A stretch of 56,395 bases of DNA. It comes from Cephaloticoccus sp. GTDB lineage: Bacteria; Verrucomicrobiota; Verrucomicrobiia; Opitutales; Opitutaceae. Positions within the stretch are counted from its first letter, which is position 1, and every line of letters starts with the position of its first letter. A model generated the notes under the pieces. The model ran no database searches, was not told where the DNA came from, and saw only the letters and a program-made list of their open reading frames with translations. Both the position numbers and the translations under genes were made by a program. Below, piece after piece: positions 8,817 to 18,693 of the stretch. The stretch spans positions 1 through 56,395 of the forward strand of contig JAURHD010000018.1 of assembly GCA_030833445.1 (NCBI GenBank), written 5' to 3'.

Positions 8817-8853
8817 GGGGCGCCGGGCGCCCCAAGGCGCGCTATGCGGCGCC
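8817..8853 (-). promoter_or_regulatory. GC-rich hairpins between the TPP aptamer and the receptor start (putative expression platform)
   Basis: Two stable stems lie between aptamer and coding region: GGCGC/GCGCC at 8836-8853 and GGGGCGC/GCGCCCC with a three-base loop at 8817-8833. Neither is followed by a U-tract, so control at the level of translation, or a terminator needing other factors, is more likely than classical intrinsic termination. Confidence 0.45.
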
Positions 8854-8860
8854 TGCTGTT

Positions 8861-8948
8861 TCCTTCGTCGGCATGATCCGTTCAGGTTCGAAGGGTCCGG
8901 CGGCCGAGTCGTGCCACCATCTCAGTCCTCCGCGGAGGACACCCCTAC
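8861..8948 (-). promoter_or_regulatory. TPP (thiamine pyrophosphate) riboswitch aptamer
   Basis: On the minus strand the conserved THI-element blocks appear in order: GGGGTG at the 5' side of the junction, a self-complementary TCCTCC-GCGGAGGA stem, CTGAGATGG, then GGACCCTTCGAACCTGAACGG and ATCATGCCGACGAAGGA. The CTGAGA and GAACCTGA blocks bind the pyrimidine and the pyrophosphate in known TPP riboswitches, and the last block closes the P1 side. The element lies 82 bases upstream of the receptor ATG at 8779 and downstream of the gamma-glutamyltransferase stop, so it controls only the receptor. Confidence 0.93.
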
Positions 8949-9011
8949 AGGCAAGAGGCACACAATTCCGATCTGCCGGACGTGCAACAAAAACTTCTGT
9001 CCTAAACGCAA

Positions 9012-13780: not shown

Positions 13781-14443
13781 ATGTCCGGCGGTTCATCAGC
13801 ACCTTTCAGCAAACTGCACTTTGTCCTCGTGGACGACACCGCCAGTTTCCGGGAGCTGCTCAAGGGCTCGCTGCAAAAGCGCTTCCAGCCCAAAACGTTG
13901 TTGGATTTTGCCGACGGCCGGGATGCCTTGGCCGCCTGTCTCGCCCATCCGCCGGATTTGCTGATCGCCGATCTCTAGCTGCGCGATATTGATGGCCGGG
14001 ACATCGTTAATGAGCTCAGACGCCGCGATCTCAATACGAGGGTCATCATGCTCACCGCCCATCCCGAAGCCCAGTTGCCGGCCGAGCTGCTCTCCATGGG
14101 TGTCGCCGGCTTCGTGGATAAAAATTCTCCTCTCGAACAGATCGACCGGGCCGTGCAATGCGTGCTCGACGGGGGGATGTTCTTCTCCGCCACGGTGCCG
14201 CCGCCGGTGCCAAAACTTACGGCTGAACCCACCCTGCCCCGCTTGGGAGCCGAGGCGCTGTCGGAGCGCGAACGCGAAGTCGCCCGGCTCGTAGCGCGCG
14301 GACTGCTCTCCAAGGAAATCGCGGCGCAACTGGATCTCAGCACCCGCACGGTGGAAAAACATCGCGCCCGCATTCTCGCCCGGCTGGGGCTGCATGATAC
14401 GCCCACCCTGGTGCGCTGGTGCATGCGCAACGGTCTGGGTTGA
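13781..14443 (+). pseudogene. LuxR/NarL-type response regulator split by an in-frame amber codon
   Basis: One continuous frame encodes a 220-residue two-domain response regulator except for a single TAG at 13976-13978. Before it lies the first half of the receiver: acidic pair at residues 18-19, phosphoacceptor Asp64 in LLIADL, then the stop at codon 66. After it the same frame reads LRDIDGRDIVNELRRRD, the rest of the receiver (IMLTAHPEA, then FVDKNSP with the conserved Lys), a linker and a LuxR helix-turn-helix (LSEREREVARLVARGLLSKEIAAQL). A CAG to TAG change (Gln) is the simplest cause. Without suppression the cell would make a 65-residue stub, and possibly a 131-residue DNA-binding half from the ATG at 14048. 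Its stop abuts the stop of the convergent histidine kinase gene (TGATCA). Confidence 0.85.
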
Positions 14444-16489
14444 TCAAACCGTCGCAGCCGGCTGTGCCACCGGGAGCAGCACCCGAAACACTGCGCCGCT
14501 GCCAGGATGCGACTGCACTTCCAAACGCCCACCCTGTAGGGTCAGCAATTCACGGGCGATCACCAGACCCAGTCCACTCGAGTCGCCCTGCTTGCTGGTG
14601 TCCGGTGTGAGCCGGGCCGGCGGAGCGAAAATCTTGGCGAATTCCGCCGGGCCAAGACCCGGACCATTGTCGCGCACTTCCGCGAAGGCCCAGCCCCCGG
14701 CCTCGCCAAAGGCTACCTCAATCCGACCGCCGGCCGGGGTAAACTTAATGGCGTTGCCCAACAGATTATCGAAAACTTGGCGCAATCGGTCCGCATCCGC
14801 TTCAATCAAGGGGAGTTCATTCGCCGGTTTGAGAAAGACCAATGCCTGGCCCTTGGCACTCGCGACCGGCTGCAAGGTGTCGACCGCCGCTTGGGCCAAG
14901 GCGGCGAGATTAATCTCCGACGTATGCAACTGCAGGTTCCCTTCCTCGATGGCCGCCGCATCCAAAAAATCCCGGACCAGACTGCGCAATCGGGCCGTGT
15001 CGGCCCGCATGATATCCGCGAGTCGTTGCACAATAGGCGCGTCGCTGGACGAACGTCCAACTAGCTCAGCCGTGGCATTCAATGCGGCCAAAGGAACCTT
15101 CAAGTCATGCGAAGCCATCATTAATAGTCGCGACTTCAGTCTTTCGGCTGTCTCGGCCTTTTCACGGGCGTGCTCGGTGGTCGCCTGCATCCGGCGCTGC
15201 GCCCGCATCCGCACCCGGTGCAACAGCAGCACCGCGCCAAAGAGCACCAACCCCAAGGCCAGCCCGATCACGAGGACCAGATTTTGCAGACGGCGGCGGT
15301 CAATTTCACCGGCCTTCAAATCCTGATCGCGGCGCAGCAGGGCGATTTCCAATTCGCGTTGCTCCGCGTTGTAGTGGGCCCGCAGCTCACTCATGCGTTG
15401 CCGATCCTGATCCCCGCGCATTTCCTCATTCGATGCCGTGAGCTTGCGTTCATAGGCCAACGCATCCGCAAACTGTCCCCTGGCCTCGTGGGTGGCGGCA
15501 TATTCCTGATAGATGGCTCCTAGCACTTCAGCACTGCCGAGGTTGACCGCTATCTCATAAGCCTGATCAAGATGAGTCAGTGCCTCCGCCGTGCGACTGG
15601 TTCCGCGCATCACCGTGGCAAGCCGCCGGTGCGTGTTGGCAATGTAGCGCCGCAGCTTGAGGGGCTGATAAATCGCCAAGGCCTGCTCCAAATAAACCAG
15701 CGCTTGGGCGGAGTCCCCTTGGGCATCCGCCACCAGACCCAGATTGGTCAATGAATCGGCGATCGCCCGTCGCTGGCCGAGGGCCTCGCGAATCGACAGG
15801 GCCTGACGGTGCAGTTCACGGGCGCGCGGGAAATCTTGTTCAGCCAAAAAATAATTCCCCAGGCTGTTGAGGATACTCGCCAGTTGCCGCTGGTCACCGG
15901 CCGTCTGGGCCAGTCGCAGGGCTATATCGAAATGAGTGCGGGCATCATCCCGATTGCCAAACCGTTCGTAAGTCAGTCCGAGCGCTACATGCGTCCGCGC
16001 CAGCAAGGCATCATCCCCCAAGGCCGGCACCAGTTTCAGCTCCTCCAAATGGGTTTCAATGGATCGCGGATAATCGGCCAGATTCCAATGCATGCGGCCC
16101 ATCAAATAGAGAAACTCCACCTCCAAGCGCTTATCACCCAAGGTCCGGGCCTGCTCCAATCCCTCACGGGCCATGGCCAGCCCCGTCGTGTAATCACCCC
16201 GACGTCGTTGCAGGTTAACCAAGGCAGCCATCGCCTGTAGTTTAGTCCGCTCATCGGTTGCGGTGGCCAGGGCATGTTCAGCCTGAGCGTAAGCTTCATC
16301 CCCTTCGCCGGGGTCCGTATCGATCGGCTGAGTCACGTTGGACTCTCCGTCAATGGGCGACCCCCTCAGGCCGGGCGCGGTTTGCACCCACAAGGTCAGA
16401 GCCAACGAAATTCCCGCCACCCAACCGGCTACACCACCCAACCGGAACTCCCGGCCAGTAATTCTAAGCGGGCTTTCCACGGGTGACAT
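14444..16489 (-). CDS. Sensor histidine kinase with TPR ligand domain
   Basis: A 681-residue membrane histidine kinase. An N-terminal membrane segment or signal anchor (about residues 18-37) is followed by an extracytoplasmic array of about seven tetratricopeptide repeats (residues 64-345, for example SLTNLGLVADAQGDSAQAL), a second membrane helix at about 402-424, a coiled-coil linker, the HisKA domain with the phosphoacceptor His461 in MMASHDLKVPL, and an ATPase domain with N box DNLLGNAIKF, G1 VRDNGPGLG and G2 GLGLVIA. It ends back to back with the neighbouring response-regulator frame, the only regulator nearby and therefore the likely partner, but that regulator carries a nonsense codon. 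The stimulus is unknown; TPR sensors of this layout often sense through a partner protein. Confidence 0.93.
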   Translation of the reverse strand: MSPVESPLRITGREFRLGGVAGWVAGISLALTLWVQTAPGLRGSPIDGESNVTQPIDTDPGEGDEAYAQAEHALATATDERTKLQAMAALVNLQRRRGDYTTGLAMAREGLEQARTLGDKRLEVEFLYLMGRMHWNLADYPRSIETHLEELKLVPALGDDALLARTHVALGLTYERFGNRDDARTHFDIALRLAQTAGDQRQLASILNSLGNYFLAEQDFPRARELHRQALSIREALGQRRAIADSLTNLGLVADAQGDSAQALVYLEQALAIYQPLKLRRYIANTHRRLATVMRGTSRTAEALTHLDQAYEIAVNLGSAEVLGAIYQEYAATHEARGQFADALAYERKLTASNEEMRGDQDRQRMSELRAHYNAEQRELEIALLRRDQDLKAGEIDRRRLQNLVLVIGLALGLVLFGAVLLLHRVRMRAQRRMQATTEHAREKAETAERLKSRLLMMASHDLKVPLAALNATAELVGRSSSDAPIVQRLADIMRADTARLRSLVRDFLDAAAIEEGNLQLHTSEINLAALAQAAVDTLQPVASAKGQALVFLKPANELPLIEADADRLRQVFDNLLGNAIKFTPAGGRIEVAFGEAGGWAFAEVRDNGPGLGPAEFAKIFAPPARLTPDTSKQGDSSGLGLVIARELLTLQGGRLEVQSHPGSGAVFRVLLPVAQPAATV

Positions 16490-16548
16490 GCCTTAACCCC
16501 GCAAACCCTCCGGCGATTTTCAATCCAATAGGGATATCGCCGCCCCTA

Positions 16549-16647
16549 AACACAAAGGCCGCCTCTTTCGAGGCGGCCCGAGTGACCTAACACCAAGCAA
16601 ACTATTTGAACTACAAACATCACTGTATTGAGCACAGTGGTGACTAC
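16549..16647 (-). ncRNA. Candidate small RNA, copy 1 of a tandem pair
   Basis: The minus strand shows TTGAGC (16683-16678) and GTCTAT (16659-16654) at an 18-bp spacing, a conserved CYGAATGTA at the expected start, a short hairpin CACTGT/ACAGTG unique to this copy, the shared block GTTTGTAGTTCAAA and TTGGTGTTAGGTCACT, and a terminator with a 9-bp stem GGCCGCCTC-GAAA-GAGGCGGCC followed by a U-rich tail. A 24-codon frame exists (ATG near 16621) but it is destroyed in copy 2 by a missing ATG and a length change, so I read the unit as non-coding. Predicted length is about 100 bases. No known RNA family matches by eye. Confidence 0.55.
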
Positions 16648-16752
16648 ATTCGGATAGACGCGCGATGGTCAGGAAACGCTCAATCTTTCGTGAAGTATTT
16701 TGCGGGGCATTTTTGAGGACACAAAACCCTGCAATCGAGATCGTTTACTCCA

Positions 16753-16847
16753 GAAACACGAAGACCGCCTCTTTCGAAGCGGTCTAAGTGACCTAACACC
16801 AAACAAACCTTTTTGAACTACAAACTACACTATGAAATATTGCTTAC
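16753..16847 (-). ncRNA. Candidate small RNA, copy 2 of a tandem pair
   Basis: This has the same organisation as copy 1: TTGAGC (16882-16877), GTCTAT (16859-16854) at 17 bp, CTGAATGTA at the start, the shared block GTTTGTAGTTCAAA and TTTGGTGTTAGGTCACT, and a terminator GACCGCTTC-GAAA-GAGGCGGTC with a U-rich tail. Relative to copy 1 the terminator stem has a G-C to A-U exchange and a C-G to U-G change, both keeping the pairs on the minus-strand RNA. The central hairpin of copy 1 is missing through a deletion of about 10 bases. Predicted length is about 95 bases. Confidence 0.55.
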
Positions 16848-16971
16848 ATTCAGATAGACGTAGCTGAGTGCAAAACGCTCAAAATTTGTTGAAAGTTTTT
16901 TCCGATAAGTTTCATGAGGTTGTATCTAGCTTTCATACAGCTGTTTATGAATATAAAATGTTCGAAAATCC

Positions 16972-17451
16972 TTACTCAAATTGCTTGGATAAACTTAAAA
17001 CCAACACCTGATAGGTGCTCGTTCCCTCATCAACGCCGCCCATAAATGAACCCGCTACCTGCCGCTGACCCAATCTCACACTCACTCCAGTATGAAAGGC
17101 CATGGTGGAAGGAATCGTATCTGACCCGATTTGAATCTGCTCAACCAATGCGAAATCCGAAAAAATCCTGTAAGCACCTTCCTTTGCGGGGTTGATCTTT
17201 GCATCGATTTTCAAGGTAAACACTCCGATGCGCACGGAGCTCCGCGCAGTGCCGTCCGGTTGGATTGCGATCGATTGGGTAATTGACGGTTCTCTATCCC
17301 CCAACAGTGCCAACTGGGCTTCCGGCGATTTATCCTTCAGCAAACCCGCCTCTCCTTCGAAGCGATAAATATCCAGCCTCAGATTGAGTGATTCGGCCGC
17401 CAAGGCATTCAAACCCAACGCAAATAAGGCCACCGCCAGCAGAGTTTTCAT
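16972..17451 (-). CDS. Secreted protein of unknown function
   Basis: I do not recognise this 159-residue protein. The ATG at 17451 opens into a clear signal peptide (MKTLLAVALFALGLNALAAE), so it is exported; the longer open frame from 17487 adds a basic stretch that would spoil the signal. The mature part is rich in beta strands (SLNLRLDIYRFEGEAG, SSVRIGVFTLKIDAKINP, VSVRLGQRQVAGSF) and has no cysteines, much like small periplasmic or outer-membrane-associated proteins that resemble type-II/III secretion secretin-associated or DUF families. It follows the lysine aminomutase gene by 42 bases on the same strand and may be co-transcribed, with no evident functional link. Two small-RNA units lie just downstream. 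Confidence 0.75.
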   Translation of the reverse strand: MKTLLAVALFALGLNALAAESLNLRLDIYRFEGEAGLLKDKSPEAQLALLGDREPSITQSIAIQPDGTARSSVRIGVFTLKIDAKINPAKEGAYRIFSDFALVEQIQIGSDTIPSTMAFHTGVSVRLGQRQVAGSFMGGVDEGTSTYQVLVLSLSKQFE

Positions 17452-17493
17452 GACCGCGAGGTAACTACGCCGCCGGGCTAAACGCAAAACGCT

Positions 17494-18693
17494 TCAGTCA
17501 ATGCGCAGCTCGGCCACCGGAATTTCGCGGGCAACTTCGGCACCCGATTTGGGCAATGGCGTGGTCGTTAGCGGATAGCGGAATTGTTTGCCCTCGAAAT
17601 TGCGGAAGATGACTTCCTCATCGGTGATCTTCTCCACGTAGTCCGGATTGACCGGCACCTTGCCACCGCCGCCGGGTGCATCGATGACGTATTGCGGCAC
17701 CGCGTAACCCGTAGTGTGGCCACGCAGCGCCTTGATGATCTCAATCCCCTTGCGCACATCCACCTTGAAGTGGCTGCCGCCGGTAATGAGATCCATCTGG
17801 TAAATGTAATAAGGCCGCACCCGCATCCGCAGCAGCCGGTGCACGAGCGCCTTCATGACTTCAGGGTCGTCGTTCACGCCCTTGAGCAGCACGCTTTGAT
17901 TGCCCAACGGCACCCCGGCGAAAGCGAGGCGGTCGCAGGCATCCTTCAATTCCTGGGTCGCTTCCTTGGGATGGTTCACGTGAATGCTCATCCAGATCGG
18001 GCCGTATTTTTTGAAAATCTCACAGAGTGCCGGCGTAATTCGCTGCGGCAGGAAAACCGGGATGCGCGAACCGATGCGGATGAACTCCACGTGCTTGATG
18101 CCACGCAGCCGGGCGAGCAAGTGTTCGAGTTTCTTATCGGAGAGCAGCAACGGGTCCCCTCCGGAAAGCAGCACGTCCCGGATTTCGGGGTGGGCCTCGA
18201 TGTAACGCAGGGCCTGTTCGTATTCCGGATGAAAATTGTAGTCCTGCGCGTTGGAAACCAATCGGCTGCGGGTGCAGTAACGGCAGTAGGCGGCACAGCG
18301 ATCGGTCACCAGAAACAAGACCCGGTCCGGATAACGGTGCACGAGCCCGGGCACGGGCGAGTGTTCGTCCTCCCCGAGTGAATCGAGCATCTCCTCGGCA
18401 GCGATCTGAGTCTCACCGGAGCGTGGGATCATCTGCTTCCGAATCGGGCAGTCGGGATTGTCGCGGTCGATCAGGTTGAAAAAATAGGGGGTGATCGCTA
18501 GAGAGAGCTTCTTGTCGGCAAACAGGCATCCGGCCTTTTCCTCGGGCGTCAGCGTCATATAACGCTCCAGCTGCGCGACGCTGGTAATGCGATTTTTCAG
18601 CTGCCAGATCCAGTCGCGCCAATCGGCTTCCGGGACGTGCTGCCAAAGGCCCTGGCCTTGGAACCAGACGGCGCGATCTTCTTGGTAAGGCAT
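17494..18693 (-). CDS. kamA: Lysine 2,3-aminomutase (radical SAM, PLP-dependent)
   Basis: A 399-residue cytosolic radical-SAM enzyme that converts L-lysine to beta-lysine. The iron-sulfur motif is C133-x3-C137-x2-C140 (CAAYCRYC), followed by VLLSGGDPLLL for S-adenosylmethionine binding. The PLP lysine is K345 in DAPGGGGK, and the two aspartates that hold the substrate lysine in KamA, in YIYQMDL (D301) and VIDAP (D338), are both present, which favours lysine over glutamate. The C-terminal extension beyond the barrel distinguishes it from the shorter EF-P modifying EpmB. No beta-lysine acetyltransferase (ablB) or elongation-factor gene lies nearby, so beta-lysine could serve as osmolyte precursor, fermentation intermediate or EF-P substrate. 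The following gene on the same strand encodes an unknown secreted protein. Confidence 0.92.
   Translation of the reverse strand: MPYQEDRAVWFQGQGLWQHVPEADWRDWIWQLKNRITSVAQLERYMTLTPEEKAGCLFADKKLSLAITPYFFNLIDRDNPDCPIRKQMIPRSGETQIAAEEMLDSLGEDEHSPVPGLVHRYPDRVLFLVTDRCAAYCRYCTRSRLVSNAQDYNFHPEYEQALRYIEAHPEIRDVLLSGGDPLLLSDKKLEHLLARLRGIKHVEFIRIGSRIPVFLPQRITPALCEIFKKYGPIWMSIHVNHPKEATQELKDACDRLAFAGVPLGNQSVLLKGVNDDPEVMKALVHRLLRMRVRPYYIYQMDLITGGSHFKVDVRKGIEIIKALRGHTTGYAVPQYVIDAPGGGGKVPVNPDYVEKITDEEVIFRNFEGKQFRYPLTTTPLPKSGAEVAREIPVAELRID

Follow-up and report, generated by a model that had tools for sequence, protein, structure and literature searches.

We identified two tandem minus-strand units in the window (the whole stretch of 56,395 nucleotides that was analysed) as members of a new, unnamed RNA family belonging to a known kind, the sibling sRNAs. 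Taken as a whole, the reading that we prefer is probable: the units would be trans-acting sibling sRNA genes of Opitutaceae, with a dedicated, probably ECF-type promoter and a core that serves as seed without Hfq. This is apparently a small RNA of family-wide occurrence in Verrucomicrobiota, carried by hosts without detectable Hfq, and no published account of this Verrucomicrobiota RNA was among the literature matches listed. A "regulatory RNA family" had been proposed in the first-pass annotation. A conserved and covarying RNA family is indeed present, and we infer that the window RNA regulates.

As had been claimed, the two units stand in tandem and both lie on the minus strand (Table 1), and the motifs listed for them (TTGAGC, GTCTATC, YGAATGTA, GTTTGTAGTTCAAA, TTGGTGTTAGGTCACT and the GAAA loop) are present. 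Both copies are built alike: TTGAGCGTTT follows an A/T-rich lead, GTCTATC comes after a spacer, and a 5' segment leads to the core GTTTGTAGTTC...GTTTGYTTGGTGTTAGGTCACT and then to a 10-bp GAAA-loop hairpin with a CAC/GTG base, behind which copy A has a short T-rich tail. With its promoter a unit measures 129-136 bases, and the cores of copies A and B are 206 bases apart. The changes between the copies in the terminator stem keep the pairing of the minus-strand RNA, in agreement with the earlier description: one change is double-sided (A-U to G-C) and two are one-sided (A-U to G-U and U-G to C-G). The minus strand of both copies folded better than 200/200 shuffles (z -5.0 and -3.6). As the plus strand also folded below its shuffles (z -3.2 and -5.3; 1 and 0 shuffles equally good), fold energy is no guide to the strand, which is given by the relatives.

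Table 1. Positions of the RNA units, their parts, the adjoining genes and related features (window coordinates unless another sequence is named).
Feature	Position	Strand	Remarks
Copy A, RNA model match	16754..16859	(-)	R1 107 bits, E 4.4e-20; begins at the -10 element
Copy A, estimated RNA	about 16754-16849	(-)
Copy A, promoter-like element	16853..16882	(-)	pattern matches: TTGAGCGTTT-N12-CGTCTATC (TTGAGC, 17 bases, GTCTATC)
Copy A, conserved G/U-rich core	16787..16825	(-)	GTTTGTAGTTC...GTTTGTTTGGTGTTAGGTCACT; pattern match, near-invariant columns
Copy A, terminator-like hairpin	16757..16790	(-)	CAC..GTG base, 10-bp stem, GAAA loop; fold and covariation
Copy B, RNA model match	16548..16659	(-)	R1 114.4 bits, E 1.1e-21
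Copy B, estimated RNA	about 16548-16649	(-)
Copy B, promoter-like element	16653..16683	(-)	18-base spacer
Copy B, 5' hairpin (CACTGTG..TACAGTG)	16621..16639	(-)	covariation over 58 representatives; reduced in copy A
Copy B, conserved core	16581..16618	(-)	GTTTGTAGTTC...GTTTGCTTGGTGTTAGGTCACT; pattern match
Copy B, terminator-like hairpin	16551..16584	(-)	fold and covariation
TPR/histidine-kinase ORF	14444-16489	(-)	directly downstream of the RNA units
171-aa ORF	16972-17487		between the kamA gene and the RNA units
KamA-family radical SAM protein (lysine 2,3-aminomutase-like)	17494..18693	(-)	TIGR00238 369.8 bits, cut-off 199.2
Short form in the window's own genome	G000:C8:52824-52923
DUF11 (OmcB-like) envelope protein gene	L370:302-2016, L371:302-2016	(-)	leader complementary to the core

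Covariation was evaluated in 121 distinct copies (127 matches from 97 sources). In the terminator 97.9% of the cells are paired, and double-sided changes were observed at 12 of the 13 pairs (161 cells, against 5.6 pairs and 32.7 cells in shuffles and at most 36 cells in slid versions); the alignment behind these values was fitted to the model's own structure and therefore leans towards that structure. For the 5' hairpin, an alignment of 58 representatives by sequence alone gave 62 double-change cells (shuffle mean 21.7, maximum 36 in 500 shuffles), with 83.2% pairing vs 72.1% in shuffles. This is the hairpin that had been described as extra in one copy. It is present in copy B, but it is no addition, because 91 of the 121 distinct copies have the long 5' part, which is thus the commoner form; in copy A the hairpin is reduced. 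The U tail of the long-form terminator is often short and broken (GUGUUU), and a T run follows the hairpin in L178, L362 and L363. The core columns are near-invariant across copies, and the core is partly paired in the folds. The earlier view of an unpaired segment was not upheld, as the folds do not leave the core clearly single-stranded (unpaired probability averaging 0.3-0.7 per position in 111 copies); TTGGTGTTAGGTCA itself may be unpaired.

No conserved open reading frame was found in the family. A complete ATG, GTG or TTG frame of at least 20 codons within the model stretch occurs in 3 of the 121 copies, and with ATG in 0/121; a small-peptide reading was rejected, since no frame is conserved over the distinct copies. 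The absence of a known name was confirmed at Rfam gathering cut-offs: among 4227 families nothing scored above its cut-off at 16548-16882, and relaxed thresholds gave the same result. The best weak match, RcsR1 (RF02552) on copy B (16.9 bits, E 0.58), lies far below the gathering score of 60 and was taken as chance.

The family is widely distributed in Opitutaceae. A 16-base piece of the core, with one mismatch permitted, is present in 10 of 38 genomes, and promoter and hairpin accompany it in 13/13 distinct units. A covariance-model search had been proposed as a check on the family. When it was carried out with model R1, built from 13 copies and used at a threshold of E <= 0.01, conserved structure with strong covariation was recovered in 150 of 200 Opitutaceae genomes (35 of 49 genera). 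In at least two of the 50 genomes without a match, G008 and G013, what looks like a divergent relative stands behind the family's promoter type, and divergent members retain only about GGTTTGCTTG. In G008 there are two copies of such a relative (L184 and L198), with TTCTTTGCTTGTGTTGTTGTG behind a TGGAACGTTTT promoter, the one nearest to the textbook ECF -35. A class-wide sample of 384 genomes gave matches in 32, of which 29 are Opitutaceae. Spread beyond the family was rejected, as the other three matches are unconvincing (two bare hairpins and one without core and promoter); likewise, an order-level match in G025 (E 0.01) lacks the TTGYTTGGT motif. When an exact 21-base pattern was searched in one genome per species of 84,980 species, 83 stretches were obtained. 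Among the 80 of these whose titles were listed, 79 are named Opitutus, Opitutaceae, Opitutae, Opitutia, Opitutales, Rariglobus, Cephaloticoccus or unspecific Verrucomicrobia, and one is a "bacterium".

Matched genomes hold one to four model matches, the top count including weak ones. Two copies are found at 26 of 92 distinct loci, always on the same strand and with 55-141 bases between the model ends. The description of the window units as duplicated and diverging was borne out in part. The identity of copy A to the first copies of the congeners G001 and G004 is 0.81-0.82, against 0.72 to copy B, which suggests that the duplication predates the Cephaloticoccus species compared, but no such order is seen for G002, whose first copy has an identity of 0.60 to copy A, or for copy B, which is 0.64-0.74 identical to other second copies. 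In addition, a short form of about 60-70 nt without the 5' hairpin lies elsewhere in the genome (on other contigs or far away); seven of the nine genomes of the genus have a match to it (G000, the window's own, and G002-G007). All ten short forms inspected have the promoter type (L210 with TCGAAC), and eight of them have the 17-base core.

Both copies and most relatives are preceded by an element of their own that is promoter-like by sequence. TTGA[GA]C stands before 104 of the 126 family matches with enough upstream DNA, at a spacing to the model start of 17 bases in 101 cases and 18 in 3, and TTGAAT is found instead in 15 of the other 22. A profile of 109 aligned promoters, out of 119, reads TTTTTGAGCGTTTTG...GCGTCTATCT. 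Its members score at least 17.3 (median 37.6), the same promoters having trained the profile, and 0.8 Mb of G069 contains one match over 12 (14.8), much as is obtained with column-permuted profiles (mean 0.6, maximum 5). Scanning the window's own genome with an 18-base spacer recovered copy B alone. The 17-base-spacer scan of 23 genomes gave 32 matches vs 11 in reversed controls (13 inspected), and a relaxed scan gave 48 vs 19; 2 of the 15 relaxed-scan matches inspected are RNA-like, and the remainder look like coding-region chance and were set aside. Short RNA-like units (hairpin and T run, no full core) also lie behind the same promoter type in two family genomes (L191:1500-1640 and L245:3000-3130), so the promoter may drive further RNAs.

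The promoter is probably of the ECF sigma-factor type (TTGARC-N17-RTCTAYC). It has the pattern of that class, a GAAC-type -35 and a CGTC/GTCTA-type -10 about 16-17 bases apart, although the majority -35 here is GAGC and not GAAC. The S. coelicolor sigma-E promoters, which are of ECF type, include GGGAACGTTCC...CGTCTA (PMC6767563); their layout is similar, with a spacer one base longer. Sigma-70 region 4_2 gave 20 matches in the window's genome, 16 of them over the cut-off, and genes for a candidate sigma factor are therefore present.

Synteny in related loci was assessed by tblastn. In 74 of the 81 related loci that include 1.5 kb or more of upstream DNA, the RNA is preceded by a KamA-family gene on its own strand, and the TPR histidine kinase was matched in 5 of 92. 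Within 14048-16489 of the window, a LuxR-type response-regulator ORF (+) is placed tail to tail with the TPR histidine-kinase ORF (-). A TPP riboswitch (RF00059) is present in the window at 8843-8956 (-). Seven related loci (L084, L097, L110, L112, L140, L141 and L163), chosen because an ORF there resembled the riboswitch, also have one, downstream of the RNA and on its strand, within about 200 bases in six and about 2 kb away in L084. A TPP riboswitch near the RNA is a recurrent neighbourhood.

Hfq (PF17209) was found in none of 29 genomes, 19 from Opitutaceae and 10 from other families of the order, with controls positive in 5 of 14. Hybridisation of the core to 543 gene starts was not clearly above that of 60 shuffled cores (for the best 20, 0.067 of shuffles were as good), and 6-9-base core complements were not enriched at gene starts in 0.8 Mb of G069; these general tests are weak because the sample is about 19% of one genome and the gene starts are crude. 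Near-perfect complements of the core number 53 in 61 family genomes. Fifty of these are the RNA genes themselves, 44 by model-match coordinates and 6 by inspection, with the promoter. The other three, against five for reversed-pattern controls, are one site in G010 and G071 and a third at L367.

At the site in G010 and G071, the leader sequence CCTAACACCAAGTAAACC can pair with GGUUUGCUUGGUGUUAGG over 18 contiguous bases with one G-U. Between the end of this site and the ATG are 14 nt; the gene encodes a 560-aa protein that contains DUF11 repeats (PF01345, E 2.1e-38) and also matches Chlamydia OMP6, though below threshold. By a rough estimate, about 2% of random matches would fall in this orientation no more than 40 nt from a start. 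Conservation of the site adds little, because G010 and G071 belong to a single genus and have leaders that are similar over their whole length; no ortholog of the protein was found in the retrieved related sequences. The target search with the core that had been suggested at the outset yielded one candidate leader with an 18-nt complement, which speaks for pairing through the core, but no signal in the general tests. The OmcB-like envelope mRNA is a candidate first target.

A copy was also detected in a phage. Among six IMG/VR contigs with the 17-mer, the sole clear model match (42.8 bits, E 3.8e-7) is on L296 (IMGVR_UViG_3300005529_000089, 26,156 bases); the other five scored at most 19.6 bits and were judged chance. 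The element, at 3970-4083 of L296, consists of the core and a strong hairpin, and over 34 bases its core has the same sequence as the host copies in L090, L148 and L248. Two same-strand ORFs of the structural module flank it, with one small ORF between it and the preceding major capsid gene (SU10_MCP, E 1.1e-32; PHROG major head protein, E 9.2e-26), and the promoter is absent within 200 bases of it. Searches with a further two core patterns and a promoter pattern added no true viral match, and a pattern-based search found no second contig with this capsid protein. As evidence for a phage strategy, this one contig is thin.

The main rival, which we regard as rather unlikely, is a protein-binding RNA, in which the core would be a site for an RNA-binding protein or RNA polymerase and the RNA would titrate or tune it like 6S or CsrB-type RNAs. 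A core longer and more invariant than a pairing seed requires speaks for it, as do the negative general target tests, short forms that reduce to core and terminator, and a phage that holds only core and hairpin. However, repeated GGA motifs, a feature of CsrB, were not seen by reading, the long bulged helix of 6S is absent from the folds, and Rfam gave no match; the reduction of divergent members to about GGTTTGCTTG and the leader with the 18-nt complement argue in the same direction. Compatible with our main reading is a possibility to which we give a clear minority of the weight, namely that the RNA is as described but its promoter is of a lineage-specific housekeeping type instead of ECF. 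TTGAGC is like a -35 box, and the full promoter was found at 0/10 inspected sigma-factor loci; the housekeeping control consisted of tRNA promoters of 3 genes, too few. Against this, the -10 RTCTAYC is unlike TATAAT, GARC...CRTCTA resembles the listed ECF promoters, and in 0.8 Mb of G069 hardly anything else fits the profile.

It is improbable that the units are a cis element, that is, a 3' UTR, terminator or attenuator of the kamA transcription unit. The same-strand place downstream of kamA in most testable loci would suit this explanation, but each copy has its own conserved promoter, second tandem copies included, a 171-aa ORF intervenes in the window, and the short forms lie on other contigs or at a distance. 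A mobile or repeated DNA element (REP/MITE-like) with no RNA function is more doubtful still and can be given hardly any weight: there is more than one copy per genome, tandem and dispersed, yet the number of matches per genome is low, synteny is fixed, the order of promoter, spacer, RNA and terminator is maintained and covariation preserves the pairing.

According to the sibling sRNA reading, each unit would be transcribed from its own promoter as an RNA of about 100 nt, in which a G/U-rich core of 17-37 nt, optionally preceded by a 5' hairpin, is followed by an intrinsic terminator. The core would act as the seed and base-pair in trans with mRNA leaders, independently of Hfq, so that a sigma factor could alter the translation of mRNAs through the RNA. 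The mRNA of the OmcB-like envelope protein would be the first candidate partner, and tandem or dispersed duplication may raise the dose or divide the target set. A bolder version, which we consider unlikely, is an all-RNA regulon, in which one dedicated ECF-type sigma factor would have as its only or main output the sibling RNAs, and these would silence envelope protein mRNAs without Hfq via the invariant core; the phage core and hairpin in the capsid cluster would be a captured sense-strand mimic competing for the RNA's partners. Because the promoter and core are sharply defined, the regulon, sigma factor and partner are directly testable in a cultured relative; the OmcB-like leader offers a first concrete target, and the phage copy an independent handle.

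Like the intrinsically terminated trans-acting sRNAs, the units stand alone in an intergenic region and have a promoter-like element of their own, a covarying terminator hairpin and no conserved frame. The sibling sRNAs AbcR, PrrF, OmrA/B and Qrr have their own promoters and intrinsic terminators, and AbcR, PrrF and Qrr interact with Hfq. RybB and MicA are sigma-E dependent short RNAs that form an ECF repressive arm against envelope protein mRNAs, with a seed near the 5' end. The candidate target found here is likewise of envelope type, whereas the Opitutaceae RNA has a variable 5' end and an internal core, and its sigma factor is putative. GcvB has a conserved G/U-rich segment that favours C/A-rich leaders; the G/U-rich segment is alike here, but promoter and host differ, and the likeness is one without shown homology. 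In the review PMC4211561, OmrA/B are described as tandem RNAs of 88 and 82 nt, alike at both ends, that interact with Hfq, whereas the Opitutaceae hosts have no detectable Hfq and their RNA has no Rfam match. The same review (PMC4211561) presents AbcR1/AbcR2, PrrF1/PrrF2, OmrA/OmrB and Qrr, the last with a conserved 32-nt core, as sibling sRNAs, and they resemble the Opitutaceae family in their tandem or dispersed copies with common cores amid divergent parts.
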